Source of the DNA: Methanotrichaceae archaeon
Lineage (GTDB): Archaea > Halobacteriota > Methanosarcinia > Methanotrichales > Methanotrichaceae
NCBI GenBank assembly: GCA_013329455.1
Contig: DUKF01000269.1
Span: 12,609 to 25,113, forward strand
Direction: 5' to 3'
DNA: 12,505 nucleotides
The notes beneath the pieces are model-generated. The model saw only the letters and a program-made list of their open reading frames with translations, was not told where the DNA came from and did not search any database. Every line of letters begins with the position of its first letter. The stretch's first letter is position 1. A program made the position numbers and the translations under genes. This document shows positions 143 to 12,505 of this stretch, piece after piece.

Positions 143-2047
143 ATGAAACAAGACTCTTGCGGCTTGAGTTATGAGCGGGAGAAAGAGATGTGGCCTGAGA
201 AGTTCGCTTCTTTGAACGCGACATTCAGTCACATCCACCCGGGCGACCGGATATTCATAGGCACCGGGTGCGGTGAGCCCCAGTACCTGCTCAAGTCTCT
301 CGTGGAGTACGTCAAAAGCAATCCCAAGGCCTTCTTCGAGGCGGAGGTGATCCACGTCTGGAGCCTGGGGATCGCCCCTTACGCCGACGAGAAGCTCAAG
401 GATAACTTCAGGCTTGACTCCTTCTTCGTTGGGGACAGCACAAGAGACGCCGTCAACAGGGGTGCTGCCGACTACACGCCGGTATTTCTATCCCAGGTTC
501 CAGACCTATTCCGAAGGGAGATCACGCCCCTGGATGTCGCCCTGGTACAGACCTCGCCTCCTGACAGCCACGGGTACATGAGCCTCGGGGTTAGCGTCGA
601 CATCGTCAAGGCCGCCGTCGAGATGGCCCCATTGGTCATAGCCCAGGTCAACCGCCAGATGCCGAAGATCCACGGTGACGGGTTCATAAACGTCAAGGAT
701 GTGGACTATCTTGTACCACACGACGAGCCGCTCCTGGAGTACATGCCAGAGCTGATCAGCGACACTGCTCAGAGGATCGCGAGTTACGTCGCCAGGATCA
801 TCGAGGACGGCTCGACGATCCAGGTGGGGTACGGTTACGCTCCCAACGCCCTTCTCTCCCACCTCCAGAACAAAAAGCACCTTGGCATCCACACCGAGCT
901 ATTAACCGACGGGATCGTGGAGCTGATGAGGTTGGGAGTCGTCGACAATAGCCAAAAGACCGTCGACCGGGGAAAGACCGTTGCTGCCTTCTGCATGGGG
1001 CGGGCCGAGACCTACGAGTACCTCCACGACAACCCTTCGGTCGAGTTCAAGACGATCGACTACACCAACAATCCCCTGATAATATCCCAGATCAAGAGGA
1101 TGACCGCCATAAACAGCGCCATGGAGATCGACCTCACGGGCCAGGCCACCGCCGAGTCTCTCGGCAGCACCTTCTACAGCGGGATCGGGGGGCAGGCCGA
1201 CTTCATGAGAGGCTCTCTTTTCGCCCCCTGCGGAAAGTCTATCCTCGCCCTCCCCTCCACCGCCCTCGGGGGCAAAGTCTCAAGGATAGTCCCCGCCCTT
1301 CTCCCCGGCTCCGGCGTTACCCTCACGAGAGGCGACGTCCAGTACGTCGTCACCGAGTACGGGATCGCCTACCTTCAGGGAAAGAACATCCGTGAGAGGG
1401 CGATGGACCTGATCGCGATCGCCCACCCCGACTTTCAGCCCTGGTTGATCGAGGAGGCGAAGCGGCTGAACCTGATCTACAAGGACCAGGCCTTCGTCCC
1501 CGGCAAAGGCGGAGAGTATCCCGAGAACCTGGCGATTCACAGGACGACCCGCACGGGCCTGGAAATCCTCCTTCGGCCCGTCAAGATCAGCGACGAGCCC
1601 CTGATCAAGGACTTCTTCTACTCCCTCTCCGACGAGAGCATGTACACCAGGTTCATCTCGGCCAGAAAAAACGTACCCCACGAGATGAGGCAGGATTTCG
1701 TCGTCGTCGACTATTCGAGGGACATGGTCATCCTCGCCGTCGTCGAGGACCTGGAGCGGGAGAAGGAAAAGGTCGTCGGCGTTGGCCAGTACAGCCGCAA
1801 TCGCGACATGCACACCGCCGAGGTGGCGCTGGTGGTGAGAGACGATCACCAAGAGAAGGGGATCGGCTCGGAGCTGCTTCACTATCTGACTTATCTATCC
1901 AAGAGGCAGGGGCTCCTCGGTTTCTCGGCCGAGGTCCTCTCAAGAAACAGGTCGATGCTAAGGCTCTTTGAGAAGATGGGCTTTGATATCGAGAAGAGAC
2001 GGGAGGAGGGGGTCTACGAGCTGAAGATGACCTTCAGGGAGGTGTGA
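143..2047 (+). CDS. Acetyl-CoA hydrolase/CoA-transferase family protein fused to a C-terminal GNAT acetyltransferase domain
   Basis: The 634-aa product has two units. Residues about 20-460 are a class I acetyl-CoA hydrolase/4-hydroxybutyrate-type CoA-transferase. Visible family motifs are DRIFIGTGCGEPQYL near the N-terminus, GIHTELLTDG with E252 as the expected catalytic Glu, GIGGQADFMRG at 347-357, and VVTEYGIAYLQGKNIRERA at 402-420. Residues about 475-632 are a GNAT domain with the acetyl-CoA-binding motif QEKGIG at 570-575. Such enzymes move CoA between acyl groups. The GNAT half could acetylate a protein or small molecule, but no substrate is visible. I chose ATG 143. An in-frame TTG at 119 also exists, but the GAAGGAGG ribosome-binding site (121-128) lies downstream of it. 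The gap from that site to ATG 143 is long, so a start at ATG 188 is possible. The gene is G+C-rich, intact and cytosolic (no signal peptide). Confidence 0.9.
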   Translation: MKQDSCGLSYEREKEMWPEKFASLNATFSHIHPGDRIFIGTGCGEPQYLLKSLVEYVKSNPKAFFEAEVIHVWSLGIAPYADEKLKDNFRLDSFFVGDSTRDAVNRGAADYTPVFLSQVPDLFRREITPLDVALVQTSPPDSHGYMSLGVSVDIVKAAVEMAPLVIAQVNRQMPKIHGDGFINVKDVDYLVPHDEPLLEYMPELISDTAQRIASYVARIIEDGSTIQVGYGYAPNALLSHLQNKKHLGIHTELLTDGIVELMRLGVVDNSQKTVDRGKTVAAFCMGRAETYEYLHDNPSVEFKTIDYTNNPLIISQIKRMTAINSAMEIDLTGQATAESLGSTFYSGIGGQADFMRGSLFAPCGKSILALPSTALGGKVSRIVPALLPGSGVTLTRGDVQYVVTEYGIAYLQGKNIRERAMDLIAIAHPDFQPWLIEEAKRLNLIYKDQAFVPGKGGEYPENLAIHRTTRTGLEILLRPVKISDEPLIKDFFYSLSDESMYTRFISARKNVPHEMRQDFVVVDYSRDMVILAVVEDLEREKEKVVGVGQYSRNRDMHTAEVALVVRDDHQEKGIGSELLHYLTYLSKRQGLLGFSAEVLSRNRSMLRLFEKMGFDIEKRREEGVYELKMTFREV

Positions 2048-2147
2048 CGGATTTTCCGGACGGAGGAGTTTCAGCCTTCGGAATCTCGTCCACCTTTTCT
2101 CCGCGGATCTATTGCATAGGACTTGGATTCATCAGAGGTGAAAAGAG

Positions 2148-2309
2148 ATGGAACGAAAAACCAAAGCCGTATTCCTGAGTCTGTGTCTTTTTGTTGTTGG
2201 CACAACCTCGGCCATGAACGACGCCAAGACCGAGACGATGTCCACTCTGCTGGTGTCATACGAACTTTTGGGGCATTTTAAAGCATCTAACGATATCCTT
2301 GCTATCTAA
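2148..2309 (+). CDS. Possible small secreted or truncated exported protein, 53 aa
   Basis: A short ORF starts at ATG 2148, about 7 bases after GAGGTGA (2135-2141), a very good archaeal Shine-Dalgarno match. The first 22 residues look like a signal peptide: a basic start (MERKTK), a hydrophobic core (AVFLSLCLFVV), and a GTTSA end that could be a signal-peptidase site. The remaining 31 residues (MNDAKTETMSTLL...) resemble nothing I recognise. The ORF runs into the A+T-richer region that precedes the repeat cluster, so it may be the 5' remnant of a longer exported-protein gene cut by an insertion. The case rests only on the ribosome-binding site and the signal peptide; chance is possible. Confidence 0.4.
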   Translation: MERKTKAVFLSLCLFVVGTTSAMNDAKTETMSTLLVSYELLGHFKASNDILAI

Positions 2310-2576
2310 ATCGCGTTAAACTGAGATGTTTATAGCAGTATTTGATTACTTCGGGAGCGCGGAGAGTCACGAATACCCCGATCTTCAGTTTGGGGATGAA
2401 GTGAACCCTCACACGTTTTTTGTGCTCTTTTAAATCGATAAAACATTGGTGACTGCTGACAAATCAAGCACCATATTAAGGAATCTCAGGGGAAACCGAA
2501 AGCAGAGTTTCAATGGTGCAGGTCAAGGGAATATGGGCAACGAAGACTCGATGATTTCTGAGATCCCGAAAAACGG

Positions 2577-2626
2577 GCGTGCGGCCCGAAGCATACCCCA
2601 TCCTTTAGGGCGGGGTGGCCGCACGC
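2577..2626. repeat. Nested inverted repeat (10-bp perfect arms plus inner ACCCC/GGGGT arms)
   Basis: GCGTGCGGCC (2577-2586) is the exact reverse complement of GGCCGCACGC (2617-2626). Inside lies a second stem, ACCCC (2595-2599) with GGGGT (2612-2616). On the right the two arms join into a continuous 15-base arm; on the left an 8-base bulge separates them. An inner ACCCC...TTTAGG..GGGG hairpin of this kind recalls the right ends of IS200/IS605-type elements (recalled from family knowledge, not tested). Confidence 0.7.
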
Positions 2627-2635
2627 AATTTGATT
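2588..2635 (+). repeat. Dispersed hairpin repeat, copy A
   Basis: This copy has the layout shared by four sites in the window: ATACCCC, a short hairpin arm and loop, the opposite GGGGT arm, a CG-rich stretch, then CAATTTGA. Copy A reads GCATACCCC at 2591-2599, GGGGTGGCCGCACG at 2612-2625 and CAATTTGATT at 2626-2635. The end matches copies C and D (CAATTTGACT). It sits about 75 bases before copy B. Confidence 0.6.
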
Positions 2636-2675
2636 TTTATCGAAATGTTCATGACCCCAGTGGCCACCCATGCTA

Positions 2676-2709
2676 ATGAAAATAGGCGGTTGTGCAGACC
2701 TATTTTCAT
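2676..2709. repeat. Perfect 11-bp inverted repeat with 12-base loop
   Basis: ATGAAAATAGG (2676-2686) pairs perfectly with CCTATTTTCAT (2699-2709) across the loop CGGTTGTGCAGA. It directly abuts dispersed repeat copy B (from 2711). It could be a structured RNA, a transposon-end hairpin or a protein site. There is no gene directly upstream for it to terminate. Confidence 0.75.
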
Positions 2710-2710
2710 A

Positions 2711-2758
2711 CCAATACCCCGCATCTCTGCTGCTGGGTGCGCCGCCGCCAGTTTAACT
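2711..2758 (+). repeat. Dispersed hairpin repeat, copy B
   Basis: AATACCCC (2713-2720) opens a hairpin in which ACCC pairs with GGGT and GCA pairs with TGC. GGGTGCGCCGCCGC follows, a 14-base stretch identical to copy D, and the copy ends GTTTAACT. It is in the same orientation as copy C (6330-6377), so B and C are direct repeats on either side of the A+T-rich two-gene module. Confidence 0.65.
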
Positions 2759-3017
2759 TTTTCATCCAGCCCCTATGGAAACATTCTTCACACTAGCTAA
2801 AATTCAGGGGGATATATGAGGATAATTGGCGCAAGATTTCATTGGCAAACAGTTCCACATTCAATTGCCAGAGCACAAATTTAGAGGATGATCCAATTCC
2901 ACAAACCTAGTGCAGATGATTCGCCAGGAGCAACCTACTTGACCGGGATGTGGAATGAACGGGAATCCGATAGGGCCAGAATATTGGATCTACCTTGTAG
3001 ATTGAATGGATCGCAAG

Positions 3018-3033
3018 TATTTTAAACATAAAA
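3018..3033 (+). promoter_or_regulatory. Possible archaeal TATA box for the two-gene module
   Basis: An A/T run, TATTTTAAACATAAAA, lies about 36-50 bases before ATG 3069. That suits a TATA box with a short leader. No transcription data support it, and A/T runs are common in this stretch. Confidence 0.3.
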
Positions 3034-3068
3034 ATCATGTCGGACACTTTAAGCAGAGGCGATCAAAT

Positions 3069-3473
3069 ATGAGTGAAGGTCCAATCTTTGACATAGGAAG
3101 CCAGCAGGCAGGAATAGACATTATTCAAGGAAGAGATATTAATAAAGCTGGAAGAGATATTAATAAGGCTGCAGGTGATTTAATAATTTCAACAAATTCA
3201 ACAGCAGAAGAAGTGCTTAAAGTTATACATGCTATAAAGTATAAAATTAAAGGATCAGATATTGAATTGAAGAATAAAAGGGAAATTAATAAACATCTGG
3301 ATAACGCAATTTTTGAGTTAAAAAAAGAAAATCCGGATAAAGTGTCTATAACTGATAGTATAAAGCAGACTAATGAAATCCTAAAAGAAGCCAAAACAAC
3401 AGGTGAGACTTTAACGTATATTGGAGCACTACTTGGTAAAGTTGCTATATGGTTAGGATCATATGTTCATTAA
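3069..3473 (+). CDS. Small GRDI-tagged helical protein with hydrophobic C-terminus (putative conflict-system partner)
   Basis: The 134-aa product has three parts. Residues about 8-38 are short glycine-rich repeats (GSQQAGIDIIQ, GRDINKA, GRDINKA, AGDLI) with a period near seven. Residues about 44-110 are charged and strongly helix-forming, probably two helices. Residues about 115-132 (LTYIGALLGKVAIWLGSYV) are hydrophobic and could insert in or lie along a membrane. ATG 3069 is preferred over ATG 3006 because GAGGCGATC sits 4 bases before it, close to the ideal archaeal ribosome-binding site. The same tag begins the next gene's protein, 27 bases downstream, which points to an operon and a shared complex. 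From memory, similar Gly-Asp/Arg-Asp tags plus a helical tail occur in proteins beside NACHT, CHAT or caspase-like conflict genes. No enzymatic motif is visible. G+C is far below that of the flanks. Confidence 0.8.
   Translation: MSEGPIFDIGSQQAGIDIIQGRDINKAGRDINKAAGDLIISTNSTAEEVLKVIHAIKYKIKGSDIELKNKREINKHLDNAIFELKKENPDKVSITDSIKQTNEILKEAKTTGETLTYIGALLGKVAIWLGSYVH
3096..3161 (+). repeat. 66-bp direct repeat encoding the GRDI tag, copy 1
   Basis: This stretch matches 3549-3614 with 4 differences by eye. The offset is 453 bases, so both copies are read in the same frame and give nearly the same peptide (GSQQAGIDIIQ... and GSQRAGRDIIQ...). The surrounding DNA of the two genes is not similar, so the tag alone was duplicated or kept alike. 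Confidence 0.9.
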
Positions 3474-3500
3474 CATGAGTCTGATTTAGGCGGGGATTTT

Positions 3501-6311
3501 ATGCAGGGGGATACAGGGGAGAACGAAATAACATCAACAAATGAAATAGGGAGCCAGCGGGCAGGAAGAGACATTATTCAAGGAAGAGATATTAATAATG
3601 CTGGAAGAGATATTTCCTTCTATTATGAACTAGTAGAGGAAACCGAGTTCTTCGAGCCGAACCTTGAGCCGTTTGGTCGTAAATTTATCAGCCCAAATGT
3701 AATACCCCAACTAATCGAAACCGCTCGACGGAACAGATTATTAATGCTCGGAGGGAGCGCAGGTATTGACAAGTCCGCTTTGGCACGTAACCTTGCATGG
3801 CATCTTAGTAAGATACAACATATTGTTCCTGAAATAGATAAAATTCCAATATTGGAATGGAATCACAGTTCTTCGGATCAGCCAAGTATCGAGGTAAAAC
3901 TCCAGGAGACAACAGAAGCGACTATATTCATCTTGCCCAAGGTTTCTCCACAAGATGTAAGGTATGATTTGTCCTCTATTAAAATGGCAGCCGATAAAAA
4001 TCATCATTTTGTTCTGATTAGTACTGATGTTCCGTATCCAAGTTGGAAACTGCCTAAAGATGATCAGCATTTTTGGCAAGACATCCCGGATAATCTTTAT
4101 AGTGTAAAAGATTTAGCTATTTTTTTAGAGCAAAGATTAACCGATATTAAAGATTCCTTGCCAAATGGGGTCTTAGGCGATATACCGATTCCTGAAATTG
4201 CTGAAAATCTAAAAACACCTGACAATATCTCTAGATTTGTGACATTACTCTGCGCCGAAAAAAAGCCGCTACAACCCCAAGTAATCGAGGACATAATCAA
4301 AGATGCAAACGATGAACGGCGCACAATCGAGCGATGGTATCCTACTTTAAGCTCTCGCGAACAACTACTGGCATTAGGATTAAGCTTCTTTGATGATCTA
4401 TTTGACGACCAGTTTTTTGCTGCTATGGATAGAGTCGTTGAAAGTGTTTGGCAACGACGTGATTCATCACTTTGTGCATTAGATTACTGCGACTTGGATA
4501 AACTCCGAAATTTCTATGACTTTGTTGAGACTGAAGGTCGCGGAACTAAGATTGAGAGCCGTTTCACAGAACAACGACGTATGATATTTGAGGTAGCATG
4601 GAATAGTCACCGCCGACAAATTTTGACAGCCTTACCAGTAATTGCACAGCTCGCTTCGGACTCTGTTGCAGGAAGGTCACATGATCCTGAGTTATATGGC
4701 ACACCCGCAAGACGCAACCAATTAAGACGAGTTATTGGTGAAGCACTAAGCGATATTGCTCTAATCTCTGATAGTGCAGTTAAACGTACATTGCTCCAAT
4801 TGGCCTCCGATGAAAATCTGGGCGTTCAGGCTGTGGCTGCGCGCGCGATGGCCCGATGGCGCCAATATGGTCAAGATGCGATGTTGTTTAAAACACTGTT
4901 CGAGTGGTGCGAAGGTTCACGAGGACGAGATTATATTCTAGCTACAGTATCTCTTGCGGTTAGCTACGCAGCACGCTACGATTCCCCAAATCAACTCAAT
5001 TACAAGTTATGTGACTTATTAAAAAGGATAGCAATAGACCAAAGCCCTATGGTCCGGGATCGTTTCTGTAACCACACATTAAAAAATATAATCCCCCGTC
5101 ATATAAAACAACTACGAGATAATGAGATTTTGGAATATATGATCCAATATATTGATCTTATTCCAGAAATTGCTAAAAATTTATCGTTATCATATAGATA
5201 TAACAATAAAGATGTTAATGAAACGCTTGAGATATGGTATAATAAATGCGTAGCTCTTCGATCATCTCATGAAAATCCAGTGGAAATTACTTCAAGAGAA
5301 AAGTTGTTGGCTGCAGTAGTTCTAACCTATGGACAAATAGAATATGAGGACGTAGACGCAGCTGAAAAGGCGTTTGATCGATTGCAGAACATCCTCACAA
5401 CAAATAATCATCCTTTTGTTCACAAGATGGCTGTAATTGCTATTAGTCACCAAGCATCCAACAATTTCGAAAAGATCGAGCCGTTGCTGCAAAATTTATT
5501 AATCAATGTACCTGAGAATGATAGTGATGAAATTATACAAATTCTTAGAGACATTTACCTTGAGCAACGCAGAAAACTAGAACGAGATGATGACTATTAT
5601 ATTGAAGTAGATGGGACGCGTTATTCGATATGGATTGATTCGGAACGTCCACAAACAGCAGTTGAGATAGCAATGGATCGTTGGATAAAATCACCTAATA
5701 ATCCGGCAGCTCAACAAATAGCAGTGAGAGCATTGACCAAATTTTACTATGCTTTGGACCAGAAAGAAGAGCAGTTAATTTTAAAAATTCGAGAACAACA
5801 AAAATATCTTAACGAGTCACAAACTATTACAAAATCGCAATATGAACTTCCTATTACTTCAAATCCAGTTCAACGTATTCGAGAGAGCAAGTTTTGGGAT
5901 AAAAATACTATTCGGCTTGCTACGATTAGAGAAAATAACTATAATAATATTATCCAAGGTATATTACCAGAAGTGTTAGCGCAAAATGAGTCCAACCAAC
6001 AAGCAATGGCATTTATACTGAGAAAATGGCATCAATCTAGGGATAACGAAATTCGAACAATAGCCATGCTTCAAGATCGATCCATCTGGTTTATAGAGCG
6101 TAACATATTGAAGATTGGCGCAATAAGTTGTGGAATACTAGCTTTATTATTTATATGGAATACATCATATTCTGTACTGATCATAATCCTATTATGCGCG
6201 TTGGTGTTAGCTTGGCTAAAAACACACCCTAGTTCTGCAAAAAAGCTCAACGGCATAAATAGTCAAATTAATCAAATTGCATTACGATTTTGGGACATTT
6301 TCCATAAGTAG
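3501..6311 (+). CDS. GRDI-tagged STAND/NACHT-like protein with degenerate P-loop, alpha-helical repeats and two C-terminal membrane helices
   Basis: This is a 936-aa protein. Residues about 16-39 repeat the tag of the upstream protein (GSQRAGRDIIQ, GRDINNA, GRDI). Residues about 60-215 have the outline of a STAND NTPase. A P-loop-like GGSAGIDKS (84-92) has Asp90 where the Gly before Lys-Ser is expected. A hydrophobic strand TIFIL (141-145) lacks the usual Walker B Asp (Pro-Lys follow). HFVLISTDVP (169-178) resembles the sensor strand, then a helical ...AIFLEQRL. Residues about 280-860 are mostly helical, HEAT/TPR-like in places (QAVAARAMARWR near 443-454). Two hydrophobic segments (about 872-886 and 891-906) look transmembrane, followed by a basic tail. 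The start ATG follows GGCGGGG by a few bases. It is probably an operon partner of the small tagged gene. Inference: a membrane-linked sensor or effector of a conflict system whose NTPase is weak or inactive. No nuclease, protease or TIR motif was seen. Confidence 0.82.
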   Translation: MQGDTGENEITSTNEIGSQRAGRDIIQGRDINNAGRDISFYYELVEETEFFEPNLEPFGRKFISPNVIPQLIETARRNRLLMLGGSAGIDKSALARNLAWHLSKIQHIVPEIDKIPILEWNHSSSDQPSIEVKLQETTEATIFILPKVSPQDVRYDLSSIKMAADKNHHFVLISTDVPYPSWKLPKDDQHFWQDIPDNLYSVKDLAIFLEQRLTDIKDSLPNGVLGDIPIPEIAENLKTPDNISRFVTLLCAEKKPLQPQVIEDIIKDANDERRTIERWYPTLSSREQLLALGLSFFDDLFDDQFFAAMDRVVESVWQRRDSSLCALDYCDLDKLRNFYDFVETEGRGTKIESRFTEQRRMIFEVAWNSHRRQILTALPVIAQLASDSVAGRSHDPELYGTPARRNQLRRVIGEALSDIALISDSAVKRTLLQLASDENLGVQAVAARAMARWRQYGQDAMLFKTLFEWCEGSRGRDYILATVSLAVSYAARYDSPNQLNYKLCDLLKRIAIDQSPMVRDRFCNHTLKNIIPRHIKQLRDNEILEYMIQYIDLIPEIAKNLSLSYRYNNKDVNETLEIWYNKCVALRSSHENPVEITSREKLLAAVVLTYGQIEYEDVDAAEKAFDRLQNILTTNNHPFVHKMAVIAISHQASNNFEKIEPLLQNLLINVPENDSDEIIQILRDIYLEQRRKLERDDDYYIEVDGTRYSIWIDSERPQTAVEIAMDRWIKSPNNPAAQQIAVRALTKFYYALDQKEEQLILKIREQQKYLNESQTITKSQYELPITSNPVQRIRESKFWDKNTIRLATIRENNYNNIIQGILPEVLAQNESNQQAMAFILRKWHQSRDNEIRTIAMLQDRSIWFIERNILKIGAISCGILALLFIWNTSYSVLIIILLCALVLAWLKTHPSSAKKLNGINSQINQIALRFWDIFHK
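3549..3614 (+). repeat. 66-bp direct repeat encoding the GRDI tag, copy 2
   Basis: Partner of the stretch at 3096-3161, in the same reading frame, at the 5' end of the large gene. One change (AAAGCT to AATGCT) turns Lys-Ala into Asn-Ala; the others give Gln-to-Arg and Ile-to-Arg or are silent. Confidence 0.9.
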
Positions 6312-6329
6312 CGCTTAATTTATATTTAT

Positions 6330-6377
6330 CGAATACCCCACAGCTCAGCTGCTAGGCGTCCCACCACAATTTGACTA
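6330..6377 (+). repeat. Dispersed hairpin repeat, copy C
   Basis: CGAATACCCC (6330-6339) is followed by the hairpin CAGC-TCA-GCTG, then TAGGCGTCCCACCA and CAATTTGACTA. The last 11 bases are identical to copy D, and CGAATAC is shared with D. It begins about 20 bases after the stop codon of the large tagged gene, so it could also be part of that gene's 3' end structure. Confidence 0.65.
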
Positions 6378-6550
6378 CATTAATATGTAATTTCGCCGTT
6401 AAGTTAGTCTCCCATCAAGGCGGCGTGACTTCTTCGATTCCGGAGATCATAGGCGTAAATTAGAGGACCCCTCTTAACAAGTCCAAGATAGAATAACTGA
6501 AGATTCTCTACTGATTGCTACCATTATCTACTAGCTAAGACATGGGTACT

Positions 6551-6580
6551 ATATAATATAATATAATATAATATAATATT
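6551..6580. repeat. Pentanucleotide tandem repeat (ATATA)x6
   Basis: Six consecutive ATATA units, the last one ATATT. It lies in non-coding DNA about 240 bases after the large tagged gene. Microsatellites of this kind change length easily. It also looks like a strong TATA element, but no start codon lies at a fitting distance. Confidence 0.9.
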
Positions 6581-6782
6581 GCTGTTGCCACATCTAATTG
6601 CGACCCGTCAGATACCGAATTATCGCCAGATGATCACAAACTACTGATAAACTCCGAAAATATCAACGAGAGCTTCGCCTTCAACCATGACCAGGAAGAG
6701 ATGATCGATACCCGCCTCTCCGGCCTTAAGCGGATCTGGTCCGGAGGAGAAAGGCAGGTCGGGAGACCGATCGTTCCGGTCT

Positions 6783-7141
6783 TCATGAAGGGATCTTCTC
6801 TACCCGTATGGCGTACACATTATACTCCGGCGTCGTTGCCTGGAGGTCCAGGGCGGCGTTGGTGAGAAGGTTCGTGAGAATGTCCTGGAGGTGGAAGGAC
6901 ATGAAGGCCACGCCGCGGGACGACTTGTCGGTGATCCTCGCCTTCACCCTAACCTCGCCCACCTGGACTTGACGAGAACCGTCTCATCGTCAGAAATGCT
7001 AAGCTCCTCGGTGGGGGATCTGTGTTCCACGGCGTTGGACTTTCCGAGGCCCGGCTGAACCTCTCAACGTGCATCGTCTCTGTCCCCGGGTGGTCCATCG
7101 AGGGGCAGGGCCACTGGAGGCCACCTTGGGAGATCGGGATA
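6783..7141 (-). pseudogene. Relic of a formate dehydrogenase alpha subunit (molybdopterin oxidoreductase C-terminal part)
   Basis: The minus strand reads [19 protein letters not shown] near 7050-7125. This is close to the conserved G-x-QWPCP...HPGT block of FdhA-type molybdopterin oxidoreductases. It then continues [17 protein letters not shown]. After a one-base frameshift near 6957-6961, within a run of C's, it reads [32 protein letters not shown] and TPEYNVYAIRVEKI. That is the molybdopterin-dinucleotide-binding C-terminus, ending at a stop at 6783-6785. The stretch normally lying between the HPGT block and the C-terminal domain, some tens of residues with the TTGR...MTRRS segment, is missing, so there is also an internal deletion. 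The 5' part of the gene is absent; the DNA beyond 7141 carries the toxin-antitoxin promoter. The intact enzyme would oxidise formate. Identification is from remembered family motifs; the decay is direct from the sequence. Confidence 0.8.
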
Positions 7142-7146
7142 GTATT

Positions 7147-7166
7147 TTGTATTAGTACTGATACAA
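7147..7166. promoter_or_regulatory. Near-perfect 20-bp palindrome, probable operator of the toxin-antitoxin pair
   Basis: TTGTATTAGT/ACTGATACAA is a palindrome with one mismatched pair. It ends 9 bases before the antitoxin ATG at 7176. Type II antitoxins usually bind such sites to repress their own operon, so this is the likely autoregulatory operator. The binding itself is inferred. Confidence 0.7.
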
Positions 7167-7175
7167 GAGGAATAG

Positions 7176-7352
7176 ATGGCTCTTACAGAGGTCCAAAAAG
7201 AGGGCAGATCCTTGCGTGCCTCCGACTCTCATGGAGATTTCAGCGAGGAGTTCATAGCCGACGTGCTGGAGGCGAAGAGAGAGTCGGAGCTGGGCCTCGG
7301 AAAGCGTTTTGATAAGGTCGATGACCTGATAGCAGATCTTCTCGAAGACTGA
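7176..7352 (+). CDS. Probable RelB-type antitoxin, 58 aa
   Basis: A 58-codon ORF with an AGGA ribosome-binding site (7168-7171) close before ATG 7176. The N-terminal third ([16 protein letters not shown]) is basic. The rest is charged and helix-forming, with an acidic C-terminus ([13 protein letters not shown]), as expected of an antitoxin that wraps its toxin. I see no clear ribbon-helix-helix or AbrB motif, so the family is uncertain. The call rests mainly on context: a palindrome directly upstream and a RelE-like gene starting 19 bases after its stop. It would neutralise the toxin and co-repress the operon. Confidence 0.65.
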
Positions 7353-7371
7353 GACGTTTCCTCGCGATTTT

Positions 7372-7647
7372 ATGACTTACATATACGAAACCGAGCCCAA
7401 GTTCAGATCTAATTTTAAACGTCTTACAAAGAAGAATTGGGTGCTGGCCGAAAGAATCGCCGTCAAGATCAAAGATATATGTGAGCACCCAGAACGTGGC
7501 GAGCCCCTTTCAGGAGATCTATCGGGCATGTGGAGCGTTCACGTAGCAAAACATTATGTTATAATTTATGAAATAGTCCATAATAAAAAACATATCATCC
7601 TCTCAAACATAGACCACCACGACTATGCGTATGGCAAGAAGCTGTAA
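7372..7647 (+). CDS. RelE/ParE-superfamily toxin (probable mRNA interferase)
   Basis: The 91-aa size is typical for RelE-like toxins. The family outline is clear: an N-terminal helical hairpin (KFRSNFKRLTKKN, then AERIAVKIKDICEHP), the central PLSGDLSGMWSVHV strand region, the HYVIIYEIV strand, and a closing NIDHHDYAYGKKL resembling the H-x-x-x-Y end of RelE/YafQ-like toxins. The Arg often found in the G-x-W-R-V-R...Y-R-I-I-Y block is replaced here (SVHV, HYVII), so catalytic strength is uncertain. Such toxins cut mRNA at the ribosome when the antitoxin is lost. The gene starts 19 bases after the antitoxin stop without an obvious ribosome-binding site, which fits translational coupling. It lies where the formate dehydrogenase relic is cut off, so the pair probably arrived by insertion. 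Confidence 0.82.
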   Translation: MTYIYETEPKFRSNFKRLTKKNWVLAERIAVKIKDICEHPERGEPLSGDLSGMWSVHVAKHYVIIYEIVHNKKHIILSNIDHHDYAYGKKL

Positions 7648-7804
7648 GCTGCCAATGTCGGCTCCACCCCCTGAGAGGTTATCTTGGTGGAACGACGAAG
7701 CACCATGGCAGGTATATAGTGATGAGCCAAAAAAAAAGCGCTGGAGCCGATGGCGCGGTCCTCGCTCCAAGGCTCGGGCTAAAGCTCCGAGTTCGGCAAA
7801 AAAT

Positions 7805-8659
7805 ATGGGTGATCTATTGAAAGAGAAGAGCACATGGGAAGAGTTCTTTGATGCGCATGCGCCGGTCTACGAGGATAACGTCTTCACTAAGAACACGATC
7901 CGAGAGGTGGACTTCCTCATCGAGGAGCTATCGCTGCCCCCTGGCGGCTCAATTCTCGACATCGGATGCGGGACGGGAAGACACTCCATTGAGCTAGCCA
8001 AGCGCGGCTATTCTGTCACGGGGCTGGATCTCTCCAGTGAGATGCTCGCCCGGGCCGCGGCTTCGGCCAAGGCAGCCGGCGTGAACGTGAACTGGATCCG
8101 CTCGGATGCCACTCACTTCTCGCTCCCCGAAAGGTACGATGGTGCCATTTGCCTGTGCGAGGGAGCTTTTGGGCTTCTCGGCCAGAAGGACGACCCCATC
8201 GGCCAGCCGCTATCCATCCTTTCCAACATCTCTCGATCCCTGAAACCAGAGGCGAAGGCCGTCCTCACCGTCCTCAATGGAGCGGCCATGCTCCGCAGGT
8301 CCACGAACGATGACGTATCGGAGGGACGCTTCGATCCCCTGACGATGGTCTGGTCGTCAGAACACCCACCCCGGGAAGGTCTTCCTCCCGTTCCGATTCG
8401 AGAGCGGGCATTCATGCCGACGGAGCTCATCCTCCTCTTCCGCCTCGCTGGGTTGTCAGTCCTCAACCTGTGGGGCGGGACTGCAGGGAACTGGGGGAAA
8501 AGGACCCTCGATCTGGACGAGATCGAAATCATGATCGTGGCACGCAAAACCGCCGAACCGTCGGATGCGGGCGAGTTTGATTTTGTGCCTGAGGTTATCC
8601 CGGCTCCCACTGATGTCTATGTTGAGCTTAAGCTTGCAGGATCTTGGCATGACATCTAA
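7805..8659 (+). CDS. Class I SAM-dependent methyltransferase
   Basis: The 284-aa protein has a clear Rossmann methyltransferase core. Motif I is SILDIGCGTGRH (49-60), the acidic residue after strand 2 is D75 in GLDLS, and DATHFSLPERYDGAICLCEG (101-120) covers strands 3 and 4. EIEIMIVARK near residue 250 is the usual last strand. About 35 extra residues follow (TAEPSDAGEFDFVPEV...). The substrate is not predictable. I start at ATG 7805, where similarity to methyltransferases begins (WEEFFDAHAPVYEDN). The frame is open upstream to ATG 7655 or 7625, and the extra 50-60 residues are Trp-, Pro- and Lys/Arg-rich and look unrelated. No strong ribosome-binding site marks either start. The stop overlaps the DUF3795 gene start by 11 bases, so the two are likely translationally coupled. 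Confidence 0.82.
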   Translation: MGDLLKEKSTWEEFFDAHAPVYEDNVFTKNTIREVDFLIEELSLPPGGSILDIGCGTGRHSIELAKRGYSVTGLDLSSEMLARAAASAKAAGVNVNWIRSDATHFSLPERYDGAICLCEGAFGLLGQKDDPIGQPLSILSNISRSLKPEAKAVLTVLNGAAMLRRSTNDDVSEGRFDPLTMVWSSEHPPREGLPPVPIRERAFMPTELILLFRLAGLSVLNLWGGTAGNWGKRTLDLDEIEIMIVARKTAEPSDAGEFDFVPEVIPAPTDVYVELKLAGSWHDI

Positions 8660-9080
8660 AAGATCGGCAAATAGAAATGCTATTCCCACAAAGCTGATCG
8701 CTCCCTGCGGAATGAACTGCCGCCTCTGCCTCGCATACACAAGAGATAAAAAGCCATGCCCCGGTTGCCGGGGCGACGACAGCCCCAAGCCGGAAAGCCG
8801 CGTCGGATGTCGAATCAAGAACTGCGAGAAGATGGTGAACGCGAAAGTCAAGTACTGCTTTGGTTGTAACAGCTTTCCTTGCGCCAGGCTGAGAAATTTG
8901 GATAAGCGGTATAGAACCAAGTACGGCATGAGCATGATCGACAATCTAGAGAAAATCAGAAAACTCGGCATAAGGCAGTTCATAAGATCCGAAAAAGAAA
9001 GGTGGAGATGCCCGAAGTGCGGTGAGATGCTCTGTGTTCATACGTCGCAATGTCCTTTTTGTCAGGACACGTGGCGCTAG
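8649..9080 (+). CDS. DUF3795 domain protein (Cys-rich, putative zinc binding)
   Basis: The 143-aa protein is rich in cysteine. The N-terminal block IAPCGMNCRLCLAY (17-30), then CPGCRG (37-42), GCRIKNC (53-59) and YCFGCNSFPCARL (69-81) is the DUF3795 signature. Residues 119-139 add a CPKC...CPFC zinc-ribbon-like knuckle. Function is unknown in the family; it probably binds zinc or another metal. ATG 8649 overlaps the end of the methyltransferase gene and follows AGGATC. This and the family's usual start near the IAPCG block favour it over ATG 8565. The overlap suggests that the methyltransferase and this protein work or are regulated together. Confidence 0.85.
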   Translation: MTSKRSANRNAIPTKLIAPCGMNCRLCLAYTRDKKPCPGCRGDDSPKPESRVGCRIKNCEKMVNAKVKYCFGCNSFPCARLRNLDKRYRTKYGMSMIDNLEKIRKLGIRQFIRSEKERWRCPKCGEMLCVHTSQCPFCQDTWR

Positions 9081-9082
9081 AA

Positions 9083-9143
9083 ATGATCAAAGGACTTGCA
9101 GATAGCACGATCGAGGCATACGCTGGAGGGTATGCTTGATCAT
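9083..9143. repeat. Interrupted inverted repeat between two genes (8-bp plus 6-bp perfect arms)
   Basis: ATGATCAA (9083-9090) pairs with TTGATCAT (9136-9143), and GCATAC (9116-9121) pairs with GTATGC (9130-9135). The right arms are contiguous; on the left 25 bases intervene. It begins 2 bases after the DUF3795 stop, so a terminator or mRNA 3' structure is likely; a protein-binding site is the alternative. Confidence 0.55.
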
Positions 9144-9198
9144 CCGTCCGCCACACGACTCAGAATCCCCTCAGCTGTGAAGTTGGGCAGGAATAAAA

Positions 9199-9873
9199 AT
9201 GGCAGAAGGGCACAGAACAATTGCAAGACAGATAGCGCAGGAACACCTCCAAGCCGGTGATTCGTTGGGATGGTTTGAGGATCTCTACATACGAGCCGGA
9301 GAGGAACCATCAATAATTCCATGGGCTGACCTTAAGCAGAATCCCAACCTTATCGACTGGCTTGACCAAAATAGATTCCAGGTCTCCGGTCGAGCGCTTA
9401 CGATTGGATGTGGTTTGGGTGATGATGCTGAGGAACTGGCACGAAGGGGTTTCACCACAACTGCTTTCGACATTTCAGAGTCGGCAATCATGTGGAGCAG
9501 GAGGCGTTTTCCACAGTCATCAGTACCGTATGTCGTCGCAGACCTTCTGTCAGCGCCTGTCGACTGGGTGGCAATGTTTGACTTTGTCCTGGAGTCGTAC
9601 ACGCTTCAAGTACTTCCTTCCGATCTTTGGCCTGATGCCGTGCGTTACATCAGCTCCTTCGTCGCACCCGGCGGCATCCTGCTCGTCATCGCTCGGGGTC
9701 GAGAACCAAATGAGCCTGAAGGGATGATGCCTTGATCCCTGATCAAAGAGGAGTTATCGCTCTTCAAGGCTCAAGGACTCCAGGAGGTCGCCTTCGAAGA
9801 CTACATGGACAGCGAGGAAGTTCCTGCGCGTCGATTCGTGGCCACCTATCGGCGAGAAAGACAGGGGGGATAA
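9199..9873 (+). pseudogene. SAM-dependent methyltransferase interrupted by an in-frame TGA
   Basis: From ATG 9199, preceded by GGCAGGA, the frame encodes 178 residues to TGA 9733-9735. It continues in the same frame for 45 more codons to TAA 9871-9873. The first part has the SAM-binding motif ALTIGCGLGDDAEELA (66-81), FDISESAI (90-97), the preceding IPWADLKQNPNLIDWL block, and FDFVLESYTLQVLP (127-140). The part after the stop (SLIKEELSLFKAQGLQEV, then FEDYMDSEEVPARRFVATYRR) reads like the normal end of this family. As I remember the family, a Trp sits at the stop position (PWPLTREEL), so one G-to-A change (TGG to TGA) explains it. The truncated 178-aa form would lack the last strands of the fold and is probably inactive. 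The full gene would encode 224 aa. Recoding of TGA is possible but has no support here. Confidence 0.78.
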
Positions 9874-9879
9874 AAGAAC

Positions 9880-10005
9880 ATGGCCCATGAATTTGACGGC
9901 CAGAAATATGAAGCAGCATCCGGTCACCAAAAGGAATGGGGAGAAAGACTCATCGCAGAGCTCAATCTTCAGGACACTGAGCGCATCCTCGATTTGTCTG
10001 ATTGA
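9880..10005 (+). pseudogene. 5' fragment of another SAM-dependent methyltransferase gene, 41 codons
   Basis: ATG 9880 begins MAHEFDGQKYEAASGHQKEWG, then LIAELNLQDTERILDLSD and a stop. The sequence is that of the N-terminus of a trans-aconitate-methyltransferase-like protein, in which LDL is normally followed by the GCGDG SAM-binding loop. Here the reading stops exactly at that point, and the rest of the gene is gone. The Cdd1-type gene starts 15 bases later, so a deletion probably joined the two. It starts 6 bases after the end of the interrupted methyltransferase, so the two were once an operon. The fragment could still be translated but cannot bind SAM. Confidence 0.7.
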
Positions 10006-10020
10006 GGGGGCAGATCCTCT

Positions 10021-10350
10021 ATGAATCGAGAACAATATACCAGATTGGAACAAATTCCCAACATTGGTCCCTCTTTAGCGGAGGATTTGCGCCTAGTCGG
10101 GATTTCTCATCCACGGGATCTGATAGGGCGAGATCCCTATGAGATGTACGAGGAGTTATGTCTTAAAACAGGGGAGCGACATGATCCCTGTGTTATCGAT
10201 GCCTTTATCTCCGCCGTAAGATTCATGGAAGGCGAGCCCAAACGGCCCTGGTGGGCTTATACATCGGAGCGCAAGCATAAGCTTGCCAGTATGGATTCAT
10301 CCGGCCAGACCAAATCCTCCTGCGGACGGCCACCCGAAGGAAGCCGCTGA
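10021..10350 (+). CDS. Cdd1/'pathogenicity locus' family helix-hairpin-helix protein
   Basis: The 109-aa protein has a helix-hairpin-helix near the N-terminus: LEQIPNIGPSLAEDLRLVGI (9-28). The Cdd1 signature follows: DLIGRDPYEMYEELCLKTGERHDPCVIDAF and PWWAYTSERK (about 33-85). These small proteins are annotated as helix-hairpin-helix or 'mitomycin resistance' proteins and probably bind DNA; the role is not established. ATG 10021 follows GAGGGGG (10004-10010) at a suitable distance. The last 25 residues (SMDSSGQTKSSCGRPPEGSR) look low-complexity and are not part of the domain. It lies between methyltransferase remains and an 8-oxoguanine glycosylase gene; the DNA-repair setting fits, but no operon link is visible. 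Confidence 0.85.
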   Translation: MNREQYTRLEQIPNIGPSLAEDLRLVGISHPRDLIGRDPYEMYEELCLKTGERHDPCVIDAFISAVRFMEGEPKRPWWAYTSERKHKLASMDSSGQTKSSCGRPPEGSR

Positions 10351-10660
10351 ACCTGACTGCTGGGCGTGATACGACGGGGGGGGCAGGAATAACGAAAGAG
10401 ATCTATACGGAAATATCCGAGCTAAAACCAACAACATAAGCACCAAGCGTATCGCGCTTGAGATGTAATTGAGCGAATCTACCATGAACCGTGTCTGGAT
10501 GCATTGGAATAAAAAAACCGCACGCCACTGTCCATTAGTCAAATTGCGGCGGCGCACCCCGCAGAAGGGCTGCGAAGTATTCGATAAAAATAAATTCAGG
10601 CCTCTTTCAAATTGTCTCTCTTCCGACACCGTCTTATCGCCCGACGACTATCCCGCCCCG
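10351..10660. other. Intergenic region with repeat copy D and small hairpins
   Basis: No gene is supported. An open frame from ATG 10469 joins the glycosylase frame, but it crosses the dispersed repeat and has no ribosome-binding site. The region contains a run of eight G's (10376-10383), a 6-bp hairpin CAAGCG-TATCG-CGCTTG (10444-10460), and repeat copy D on the minus strand. The A/T-rich GATAAAAATAAATT (10583-10596), about 65 bases before the glycosylase ATG, could be its TATA box. Confidence 0.45.
10537..10583 (-). repeat. Dispersed hairpin repeat, copy D (inverted)
   Basis: Read on the minus strand this is CGAATAC followed by a 9-bp hairpin, ACTTCGCAG/CTGCGGGGT with loop CCCTT and two T-G wobbles. 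GCGCCGCCGCAATTTGACT follows. It shares GGGTGCGCCGCCGC with copy B and CAATTTGACTA with copy C. It is opposite in orientation to copies A, B and C. Confidence 0.65.
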
Positions 10661-11311
10661 ATGACCCCCGACAGAACCGAGGAGATCGTTGCCTTCCACA
10701 AGATCCAGAAAGATAAGATCGAAGCGCGCCTAGCCGACTTCAGACAGATATGGTCTGAGGGATCCGACCGCGACCTATTCGCGGAGCTCGCCTTCTGCAT
10801 CCTCACGCCCCAGTCTCGGGCAAGGACCTGCTGGCCCGCCGTTGAGAGGCTCCGGGAGGGCGACCTTCTCTTCGTCGGGACCGCGGACGAGATTCTCGAT
10901 GAGCTACAGAGCGTCCGCTTCAAGGAGAGGAAGGCCAGTTACATCGTTTATGCCCGAGAGCAGTTCACAAAGGATGGCCGTTTATCGATCCGAGACACCC
11001 TTGAGGGGTTTTGCGACCCCTTCGCCCTCCGGGAATGGCTCGTCGAGAACGTCAAGGGCCTCGGGTACAAGGAGTCGGGCCATTTTCTGCGAAACATCGG
11101 CCTGGGCGAGGATCTCGCCATCCTCGACCGTCACATCCTCAAGAACCTGGTTCTTCTTGGCGTGATCGATGAGATCCCAAAGTCCCTCACCAAAAAGAGG
11201 TACCTTGAGATCGAGCGGAGGATGATCGCATTCTCGCGAGAGACCGAAATTCCCATGGGCCATCTGGACATGGTCCTCTGGTCCAAGGAGACCGGCGAGA
11301 TCTTCAAATGA
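10661..11311 (+). CDS. ogg: Ogg2-type 8-oxoguanine DNA glycosylase/AP lyase
   Basis: The product is a 216-aa archaeal Ogg2 (N-glycosylase/DNA lyase). It removes 8-oxoguanine from DNA and nicks the abasic site. The helix-hairpin-helix/GPD signature is complete: LAFCILTPQSRA (43-54), VKGLGYKESGHFLRN (131-145) with K137 as the Schiff-base lysine, and LAILDRHIL (152-160) with D156 as the catalytic Asp. The protein ends in Lys216; in Ogg2 enzymes the C-terminal Lys helps tell 8-oxoguanine from guanine. Length matches the family (about 205-220 aa). I choose ATG 10661 because similarity begins there; the frame is open back to 10469 but crosses repeat copy D. The 3' end overlaps the convergent DUF4130 gene by 8 bases. 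Confidence 0.92.
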   Translation: MTPDRTEEIVAFHKIQKDKIEARLADFRQIWSEGSDRDLFAELAFCILTPQSRARTCWPAVERLREGDLLFVGTADEILDELQSVRFKERKASYIVYAREQFTKDGRLSIRDTLEGFCDPFALREWLVENVKGLGYKESGHFLRNIGLGEDLAILDRHILKNLVLLGVIDEIPKSLTKKRYLEIERRMIAFSRETEIPMGHLDMVLWSKETGEIFK

Positions 11312-11924
11312 AGTCCGCAAGTTTCGCGTTTCCTCTGCCCCTCTCAGTCTCGAGGCCGGTGGACCTGAGCGACCTTTTGGATATCCGCCCTCCGAAGGGC
11401 CTCTCAGCATTTTTGCGGGGCTGGTCCTGGCTTCGATAGTAAACTTCCCAGATGGCGGCAATATCGTCCTCGCCGGTTCCTACATCCAAAGGGCGAGCAA
11501 GCTCTTCCAGCGAGCCCTTGATCCCCTCGCCCCTCGATCTGAGAAAAACGCTCTCGGCGCGGAGGGATATCCAGGACCTGCTCTCGTCTCCGAGGACGAT
11601 TATCGTTCCCGGAAACCTCTTCGCGAAAAAGTCGGCTACGCAAAACCCGATCTCGTGGTTTGGGCTCATCCGGCCGTAAAGCACACTTTTTCCCAGGGGC
11701 TTTAGCCTAACAAAGCCCCTCATCCGGTGTATCTCGCCTTGGACTGAGTATACCATCCTCCTTATACGAACGATCTTCGGATCTGTCGAGGTCTCAATCT
11801 CCAGAGGCGTGAGTTTTCTTGCAAGTTCGATCAGCTTCTCGTCGCAGTTCCTGTGAGCCGCAAGAAGCTTCAGAAAGTCGTCGGGCGTTCTCAACTTATC
11901 CACCGATCCAGGGTCGTGCCGCAT
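11304..11924 (-). CDS. TIGR03915/DUF4130 family putative DNA metabolism protein
   Basis: The 206-aa protein has the DUF4130 core. IVRIRRMVYSVQGEIHRMRGFVRLKPLGKS (51-80) leads to VLYGRMSPNHEIGF, then VADFFAKRFPGTIIVLGDESR, with DDIAAIWEVYYRSQDQPRKN at 153-172. In many genomes this family sits next to a radical-SAM protein of the TIGR03916 type, and in bacteria it is often fused to a uracil-DNA-glycosylase domain, which is absent here. A role in DNA repair is inferred from that association. The start ATG lies inside the 3' end of the radical-SAM gene (34-base overlap), so the two are one translation-coupled operon. The last 30 or so residues (PFGGRISKRS...) are basic and do not look like the core. 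Confidence 0.87.
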   Translation of the reverse strand: MRHDPGSVDKLRTPDDFLKLLAAHRNCDEKLIELARKLTPLEIETSTDPKIVRIRRMVYSVQGEIHRMRGFVRLKPLGKSVLYGRMSPNHEIGFCVADFFAKRFPGTIIVLGDESRSWISLRAESVFLRSRGEGIKGSLEELARPLDVGTGEDDIAAIWEVYYRSQDQPRKNAERPFGGRISKRSLRSTGLETERGRGNAKLADFI

Positions 11925-12505
11925 TTTCCGTCGATCTTGAGGAAGGGCCCCGCCCGGCGTGTCACGACGCCCAGGGCCGCAAGGTCTCTCATTCTCTCGA
12001 TCTTCCTATCCCTTCTGAGGAGGGCGATCCTCTTGGCGCTCTTCGGGCCGATCCCCGGCACCCTTATCAGCTCTTTGAAGGACGCCACGTTTGGGTCGAT
12101 CGGTGAATCGAAGAATTCTGTGGCTATCGTTATCTTAGGATCTTTATTTCGAAGAAACCCGTCGTCGTCGAAGACGGTGAGGATCTCCCTCTTGTCCAGT
12201 TTGTAGATCCTGTAAAGCCAGTCGACCTGGTAGAGGCGGTGCTCTCTCCAGCGGGGCTCCTCTTCTTTATCTTCGAAGGCGGTGCCTGCCACCGGCGTGA
12301 AGGCGGAGAAGTAGACCCTCCTCAAGTTCATGACATCGTACTCGAAGTGGAGGCGGTCGAAGATCTCCCGGTCGCTCTCCTCTGCGGCCCCCACCACCAT
12401 CTGGGTGGTCTGGCCCGCGGGAAGGTCAACCTTTCTTGATAGGTCCCTCACGTACTTCTGCCTCGCAAGGATGTCCCTGACGTAATCTTTCGATGGGCAT
12501 AGCTC
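11891..12505 (-). CDS. Putative DNA modification/repair radical-SAM protein (TIGR03916 type), 5' end outside the window
   Basis: The frame is open from the window edge (12505) to the stop at 11891-11893, giving the last 204 residues. The sequence before the internal ATG 12451 (ELCPSKDYVRDILARQKYV) is clearly coding. Diagnostic stretches are LPAGQTTQMVVGAAEESDREI, LRRVYFSAFTPVAGTAFED and EHRLYQVDWLYRIYKL. A helix-hairpin-helix near the C-terminus, IRVPGIGPKSAKRIALLR, suggests DNA binding. The radical-SAM CxxxCxxC cluster motif lies in the missing N-terminal part, so the enzyme class rests on the family match. It is paired with the DUF4130 gene, as is usual for this family. Confidence 0.88.
   Translation of the reverse strand, partial: ELCPSKDYVRDILARQKYVRDLSRKVDLPAGQTTQMVVGAAEESDREIFDRLHFEYDVMNLRRVYFSAFTPVAGTAFEDKEEEPRWREHRLYQVDWLYRIYKLDKREILTVFDDDGFLRNKDPKITIATEFFDSPIDPNVASFKELIRVPGIGPKSAKRIALLRRDRKIERMRDLAALGVVTRRAGPFLKIDGKCGTTLDRWIS

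Follow-up and report, generated by a model that had tools for sequence, protein, structure and literature searches.

Why do two neighboring genes, whose products have unrelated bodies, begin with almost the same short peptide? The question is raised by a gene pair in a 12,505-nucleotide stretch of DNA (the window, G000:C162:12609-25113) from a Methanotrichaceae archaeon (assembly GCA_013329455.1, contig DUKF01000269.1). The small gene (3069..3473) encodes a protein of 134 amino acids (aa), P0001, made up of an N-terminal tag and a putatively helical body, and is the presumed effector. The large gene (3501..6311) encodes a 936-aa protein, P0002, with the tag, a degenerate P-loop module, HEAT repeats and a C-terminal pair of transmembrane (TM)-like segments, and is the presumed sensor. 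Both are open reading frames (ORFs) on the same strand, 27 base pairs (bp) apart, as an initial annotation of the window had described them; all features of the pair given below are on this strand (+). The start at 3069 is the one used in the small-protein family, although a longer ORF opens at 3006. We suggest that the two proteins probably co-assemble through their tags. That they form a two-gene signaling unit, in which the tag would be a homotypic assembly motif for templated co-assembly of sensor and effector, has in our judgment an even chance of being right.

The two genes share a tag at the protein and DNA levels

The tag occupies residues 8-40 of the small protein (3090..3188), where four GRD-type units are recognized in the sequence, the family alignment and the tag alignment, and residues 15-39 of the large protein (3543..3617), where three units are counted (sequence and tag alignment). 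Multi-unit tags are also known in relatives of both proteins (P0197, and P0049 with five units). The two tags of the window, DIGSQQAGIDIIQGRDINKAGRDI and EIGSQRAGRDIIQGRDINNAGRDI, give a local alignment score of 101. When the first 75 residues of the partner were shuffled, the mean score was 21.8 and the maximum 43, and none of the 1000 shuffles reached 101; residues 76-150 of the partner score 20. The bodies behind the tags have no family in common in Pfam, PADLOC or NCBIfam. Both the near identity of the tags and the lack of relationship between the bodies, which the initial annotation had pointed out, are thus borne out.

At the DNA level, self-comparison detects a direct repeat of 73 nucleotides that encodes the shared tag (3089..3161 and 3542..3614), the second copy being 93% identical to the first. 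Identical codons are found at 19 of the 20 tag positions that hold the same residue, and four of the five differences between the two tags change the amino acid. Because a 73-nucleotide repeat of 93% identity precedes unrelated bodies, the tag in the window has been copied recently. Such a copy might be a functionless by-product of local DNA duplication or of low-complexity sequence, which would explain the near identity of the window tags as DNA and the many relatives of the large protein that have no strict tag. We consider this explanation highly improbable: in nine other pairs, from the loci described below, the tag DNA is only 64-84% identical over aligned stretches of 30-71 nucleotides, yet the protein tags match, and three dissimilar classes of tag each match within pairs. 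The lower DNA identity also indicates that the tag matching in these nine pairs is older than that in the window. In L011, L037 and L041 the tag DNA does not rise above the shuffle maximum, though the protein tags match.

A constant effector body is combined with exchanged partners

The profile of the effector identifies 10 distinct loci after equal contigs were merged (L009 = G441, L011 = G174, L012 = G479 and L013 = G088). Seven of them are readable: their small gene is complete or almost so, and the gene after it can be read. Three were set aside: L017, where the gene is broken after about 46 residues and the next ORF is untagged, and L018 and L019, where a partial body without tag is matched (E = 5e-7 and 4e-5). 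The next gene is tagged in six of the seven readable archaeal or bacterial loci (6/10 over all distinct loci); L010 has no tagged neighbor gene. The body of the tagged partner is exchanged among loci. It is an nSTAND5 protein in L009, and the partner in L037 is 45% identical to it; in L011 it contains NB-ARC and TPR domains, and the partner in L013 is similar by eye to that in L011. The tagged 352-aa partner in L012, from Methanoperedens (5997-7055), matches nothing in Pfam at E ≤ 0.1 and contains no recognized NTPase; it may represent a different output or sensor type.

The same arrangement is found on cyanobacterial plasmids. A tblastn search of plasmids with the small protein gives only weak matches (E = 0.04-0.2, 28-29% identity) in five records, from which two Bacillus phage tail proteins were removed. 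Of the three small cyanobacterial proteins that were found, two are encoded directly 5′ of NACHT genes and the other directly 5′ of a truncated tagged gene. Comparison of the archaeal with the cyanobacterial body by hhalign yields a probability (Prob) of 96.8 (E = 2e-10) with one sequence and of 98.1 (E = 1.4e-13) with six sequences. Because of these matches and a common match to the PADLOC family PDC-M14B, the homology of the archaeal and cyanobacterial bodies can be considered firm at the sequence level. The effector body was found at 15 places in 14 plasmid records, and at 14 of the 15 places a tagged gene, encoding NACHT, FGE or other proteins, follows 4-13 bp 3′ of the effector; the sole place without a tagged partner is L048. 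The NACHT partners in L039 and L040 were recognized by Pfam, those with NACHT or FGE elsewhere by annotation, and the partners in L038, L041 and L045 are truncated or split. Over 20 loci (these 14 and the six above), the spacing from effector to tagged gene ranges from -11 to 27 bp. The tag and body can also be joined to other sequences: in L037 they make up the C-terminal portion of a 517-aa protein, which also has a TM-like segment, and in Nostocales they are found at the end of large pentapeptide-repeat proteins with TM-like segments. On four Nostoc plasmids (L042, L050, L051 and L052) a response-regulator gene lies 5′ of the gene for pentapeptide repeats, tag and body.

The order of genes, small first and large second with close spacing, would also suit a pair in which a harmless small protein keeps the large one inactive by tag-tag contact, as in toxin-antitoxin pairs, and a ParE-like toxin is encoded nearby. 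Against such an inhibitor, a single small-body family pairs with many different large bodies, and the body is also found at the C-terminal end of large membrane proteins, which suits an output module better; we regard an inhibitory role as improbable. What these loci conserve is an effector and a tag with a swappable partner. The expectation of the initial annotation that homologs of the two genes would be neighbors fails for the window's own two families, which are rarely paired (the 936-aa family was found in 1 of 392 genomes of the phylum, the window's own, G000); the relatives of the small protein are paired with other receptors.

Tag classes match within pairs and rarely occur elsewhere

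Three classes of tag can be distinguished by eye: GRDI in archaea, VQIGG.AGRD in Acaryochloris and Nostoc HK-01, and QGDNN repeats in Nostocales. We scored the tag match in 19 pairs, excluding L013, whose small gene is cut by the contig end, and L010 and L048, which have no tagged partner. The match is above the shuffles in 18 of the 19 pairs (0/1000 in each); in L045, with its truncated partner, 7 of 1000 shuffles reach the score. The cognate scores sum to 1514 over the 19 pairs, compared with 890 ± 104 under random re-pairing, and none of 20,000 re-pairings was as high.

The occurrence of the tags is nearly exclusive to such pairs. When two receptor tags were used as queries on 72,556 plasmid records, they hit 10 and 3 of them, and all 13 also hold the effector body. 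In seven genomes, 14 of the 16 matches of a GRDI-tag profile are at pair loci, and the two off-locus matches are poor (E = 0.065 and 0.56) and lie in frames of 35 and 16 aa. The same profile matches 6 of the 392 genomes of the phylum, four of which also have an effector profile match; the other two genomes contain a tagged receptor without readable effector, the contig ending upstream in G224 and the gene being decayed in G214. In the genome of the window itself, the GRDIN DNA pattern has three exact matches, all inside the pair, and five one-mismatch matches elsewhere; at L007, the only one of these five places that was read, the tagged gene pair is not present. An exception came from the effector-side search: L053, on the Nostoc C057 plasmid p057_A (NZ_CP040282), has a tag-like stretch without the body. 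Three genes in this locus (407-6662), encoding an 861-aa NTPase-like, a 258-aa and a 482-aa AAA-like protein, have a further tag in common, AQFAGG.VNAD.V.A.QIGG, and the 258-aa protein combines a different helical C-terminal body with a remnant of a QGDNN-type tag. L053 suggests that the use of matched tags extends beyond this one effector.

The possibility that the tag is a common linker in other contexts, which the initial annotation had allowed for, does not hold for closely defined tags, with L053 as a partial exception; among the 52 readable relatives of the large protein, 31 have no strict GRD-type tag. The co-assembly that had been proposed from the shared tag is supported by comparative genomics, namely the tagged next genes (6/7 and 14/15 loci), the class matching and the exclusivity of the tags.

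The small protein and its family

The family of the small protein comprises 47 proteins including P0001 at E ≤ 0.001 (23 of them aligned), and a tag of a loose pattern is present in all 47. A wider profile search gives 341 proteins, and one of the best 120 of these bears the name Methanothrix soehngenii. The body (residues 43-134, 3195..3470) has a conserved K..WLG end and reads from its sequence as helical. It is supported by the hhalign matches to cyanobacterial bodies and by a match to the C-terminal part of PDC-M14B, a candidate phage-defense protein (E = 4.9e-6, positions 179-259 of 267); the body in L040 also matches PDC-M14B (E = 2.1e-11). The likeness to PDC-M14B is confined to about positions 150-270 of 261-275, the N-terminal part being absent, and no M14A partner was matched among the proteins scanned. 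No toxin family in Pfam, PADLOC or NCBIfam matched the small protein, and the search for relatives in PDB gave only chance-level coiled-coil, ribosomal or designed proteins.

The 392 genomes contain one match to PDC-M14B at E 1e-8, in G189. This search is uninformative on GRDI-type effectors, because its cut-off is stricter than the E-value of the window protein itself. The G189 protein (L086, 1606-2238; 210 aa) matches the C-terminal part of PDC-M14B, has no GRDI tag and lies in a relative of the Methanophagales loci; the contig stops about 340 bp past its gene. In a metagenome protein, P0197, an AbiTii domain (PF18864, E = 3.9e-12) continues in the same reading frame into a GRDI tag of several units and the helical body. 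These may be two abutting genes rather than a fusion, because the AbiTii match is partial and the sequence after it opens with a Met and the N-terminus typical of the small protein.

The large protein and its family

The family of the large protein comprises at least 82 proteins including itself, with 7999 candidates scored. Among those listed, the named ones are mostly cyanobacterial and the closest are unnamed metagenome proteins; plasmids gave no match. No Pfam family reaches its cut-off on this protein, with HEAT_2 (E = 1.2e-4) and nSTAND3 (E = 0.13) below it. The HEAT_2 match covers residues 411-452 (4731..4856), and HEAT_2 is matched at E ≤ 0.01 in 16 of 25 relatives; superstructure repeats of the HEAT type are thus supported by the sequences. 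A P-loop-like stretch at residues 79-96 (3735..3788; LLMLGGSAGIDKSALAR region) is conserved in the 25 relatives, at least 90% of which retain its Lys. The canonical Walker A pattern GxxxxGK[ST] is not present in the large protein, which reads GSAGIDKS, with Asp for the second Gly. No relatives in PDB were found by sequence, and the profile gives one insignificant match there (E = 0.058).

The large protein had been called STAND-like. Comparison by hhalign with the nSTAND5 and NACHT partners aligns the P-loop stretches, but the probabilities (Prob 0.7 and 0.5, both below 1%) are not significant, and together with the absence of a Pfam family at cut-off they leave this designation unsupported. 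The protein occupies the slot that STAND proteins hold at other loci, and we do not file it as STAND. The initial annotation also placed hydrophobic segments at the ends of both proteins. With a threshold of 1.6 for the Kyte-Doolittle mean over 19 residues (KD19), this is right for the large protein, which has two TM-like segments at residues 868-886 and 890-908 (6102..6224; KD19 1.93 and 2.27), and is not confirmed for the small one, whose C-terminal segment is moderately hydrophobic (peak KD19 1.37, moment 0.25).

Surroundings of the gene pair

The pair is AT-rich, with a GC content of 0.32-0.47 in 500-bp windows (3001-6500), compared with 0.54-0.61 (1-2250) and 0.46-0.62 (7001-12500) in the flanks, in agreement with the foreign composition reported for it. 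An acetyl-CoA hydrolase fused to a GNAT domain is encoded 5′ of the pair, and the genes on the 3′ side include those for the ParE-like toxin (7372-7647; PF15781, E = 1.2e-8), two methyltransferases, an Ogg glycosylase and others. A similarity brackets the pair (2701-2758 and 6321-6376; score 46, compared with a maximum of 40 in 200 shuffles). The left copy belongs to a dispersed repeat with nine places in the genome including itself, one of them on the minus strand of the window (about 10537-10581), and the similarity was rejected as an insertion boundary for this reason. A viral or phage origin was also considered and rejected: none of 20 pattern matches in viral contigs was confirmed, and no phage record was found.

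Known systems and a possible mechanism

In the available text of PMC7889193, NLR-associated amyloid signaling is described as the pairing of a receptor, whose motif is N-terminal, with an effector that is encoded next to it and carries this motif too; the bacterial effector is usually a Bell protein with its motif at the C-terminus. The same text names the extension of amyloid signaling to archaea as an open question. A motif peptide from the NLR side of Methanothrix soehngenii gave Fourier-transform infrared spectra and Congo red staining consistent with amyloid (available text of PMC8086366), and the peptide of AEB69175.1 from this species is found at 100% identity in a genome of the same archaeal family as the window. 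It is evident that the initial annotation went too far in calling the system undescribed, since its gene arrangement varies that of NLR-associated amyloid signaling, which the latter paper had already noted in M. soehngenii. Bell-like genes with a C-terminal FDQRGQ..G.QTNIAG motif occur directly 5′ of NLR genes whose products have this motif N-terminally in four Methanotrichaceae loci (L020, L021, L022 and L023; G378, G422, G110 and G419). One of these loci holds the gene of the tested peptide and its neighbor, and the other three genomes hold pairs of the same kind. These genes encode a body with an N-terminal hydrophobic stretch and then the C-terminal motif, and the NLR follows. Judging by its layout, the window pair appears as the mirror image of these pairs, with an unrelated body and another motif.

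The likeness to the BASS/Bell-NLR pairs lies in the adjacent large receptor with N-terminal motif and small effector with the same motif, as reported in Methanothrix, and in the exchangeability of effectors (available texts of PMC7889193, PMC8086366 and PMC12261475). The differences are in the effector: the Bell motif is C-terminal, whereas the tag is N-terminal in P0001 and its relatives and internal, before the body, in the fusions; and the small body is unlike the four Methanotrichaceae Bell-like proteins (hhalign Prob 0.3, a comparison that covers these Bell sequences only), so that Bell homology is unsupported. Because the effector tag is N-terminal and the body is not Bell-like, we do not file the pair as BASS/Bell. 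The GRD-type motif may already be among the unclassified motifs of Dyrka et al. 2020, and a description of the matched-tag arrangement with an N-terminal effector tag was not found in the open PMC literature. The fungal pairs NWD2/HET-S, FNT1/HELLF and PNT1/HELLP also consist of a receptor and a neighboring effector that have a motif in common; their pair-private specificity and membrane-damaging output are reported as experimentally shown, whereas those of the window pair would follow by analogy, and the layout of the fungal effector is reversed, with an N-terminal HeLo/HELL domain and a C-terminal motif (available text of PMC7889193). EAD, bDLD and TRADD-N systems likewise place one adaptor on different proteins for homotypic contact, and EAD keeps similar company (STAND, TPR, FGS, GUN4 and pentapeptide proteins), but those adaptors are folded, mostly alpha-helical domains (available text of PMC8195603) and the tag here is a repeat about 25-35 residues long. 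The Pfam scan of the pair gave no match to an EAD family.

The matched-tag pair thus suggests a resemblance to the switches by which amyloid triggers cell death in fungi and bacteria. From the layout and this published analogy we infer tag-tag binding, an amyloid form, the sensor and effector roles, membrane action and a part in defense. The 936-aa protein, which combines HEAT repeats with a degenerate P-loop module and would be anchored in the membrane, would be the sensor. Once triggered by an invader or stress, it would cluster and gather its N-terminal tags, which would seed an ordered cross-beta assembly (a beta-arch or solenoid, amyloid-like), and this seed would template the matching tag of the 134-aa protein in many of its copies. 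The crowding would then activate the helical body, and its conserved K..WLG C-terminal segment, presumed to act on membranes, would stop or kill the cell. The tag would be a private address from one sensor to one effector, so that any sensor with a matching tag could take the place of another, and at the window locus the match would have been renewed by DNA copying between the genes.

The steps are not equally probable. Templating of the amyloid type could, on the strength of the analogy, as easily be right as wrong. The units of about seven residues (GRDINxA) could instead fold as a small beta-helix or beta-roll that holds effector and sensor in a fixed complex, without templated fiber growth. 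The regular GRD-type units and their varying number (four and three in the window, five in P0049) suit a beta-solenoid, and tag matching within pairs is expected equally. We regard such a fixed complex as rather unlikely, since the closest published analogs use amyloid templating (available text of PMC7889193) and a peptide from the same archaeal family is amyloid-like, though with a different motif (available text of PMC8086366). Returning to templated co-assembly, a role of the small protein as a membrane-damaging effector is a tentative suggestion by analogy, somewhat doubtful in our view, and membrane action and abortive infection, as initially proposed for the pair, would likewise be a matter of inference.

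Several observations weigh against a templated sensor-effector unit. When re-pairing is restricted to within classes, 621 of 20,000 re-pairings reach the observed sum, and in the two cyanobacterial classes the cognate scores (82.8 and 86.7) are no better than those of non-cognate pairs of the same class (84.9 and 85.5). Because of the within-class re-pairing result, tag specificity inside a class is only weakly supported by the sequences, and it is drawn from the archaeal pairs (cognate 63.2, non-cognate 45.6). Since the tag classes follow lineages, shared descent may contribute much to the matching across pairs. The GRD-type tag is unlike the tested Methanothrix motif (profile Prob 0.4), a clear TM helix is missing from the small protein at the KD19 threshold, and the P-loop of the large protein is degenerate and its STAND membership unsupported. 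Moreover, the strict GRD-type tag is missing in 31 of the 52 large-protein relatives whose N-termini were readable by pattern (52 of 82), several of them 51-55% identical to the large protein, and the large-protein family is for this reason not bound to the small partner.

If the proposed reading holds, the window provides a compact two-gene case from the same archaeal family as an NLR-side peptide that has given amyloid-like results (available text of PMC8086366). The proposed effector family bears its motif at the opposite end, and searches that demand a C-terminal effector motif would miss such effectors. The tag classes would offer ready-made specificity swaps. It is possible, at slightly less than an even chance, that these loci represent a modular prokaryotic signaling code outside Bell/BASS, in which one helical effector body of archaea and cyanobacteria would be combined with interchangeable HEAT, nSTAND5, NB-ARC/TPR, NACHT and FGE partners through pair-private polymerizing tags of at least three classes, whose match would be kept up by the copying of tag DNA between neighbors, caught in the act in this archaeon.

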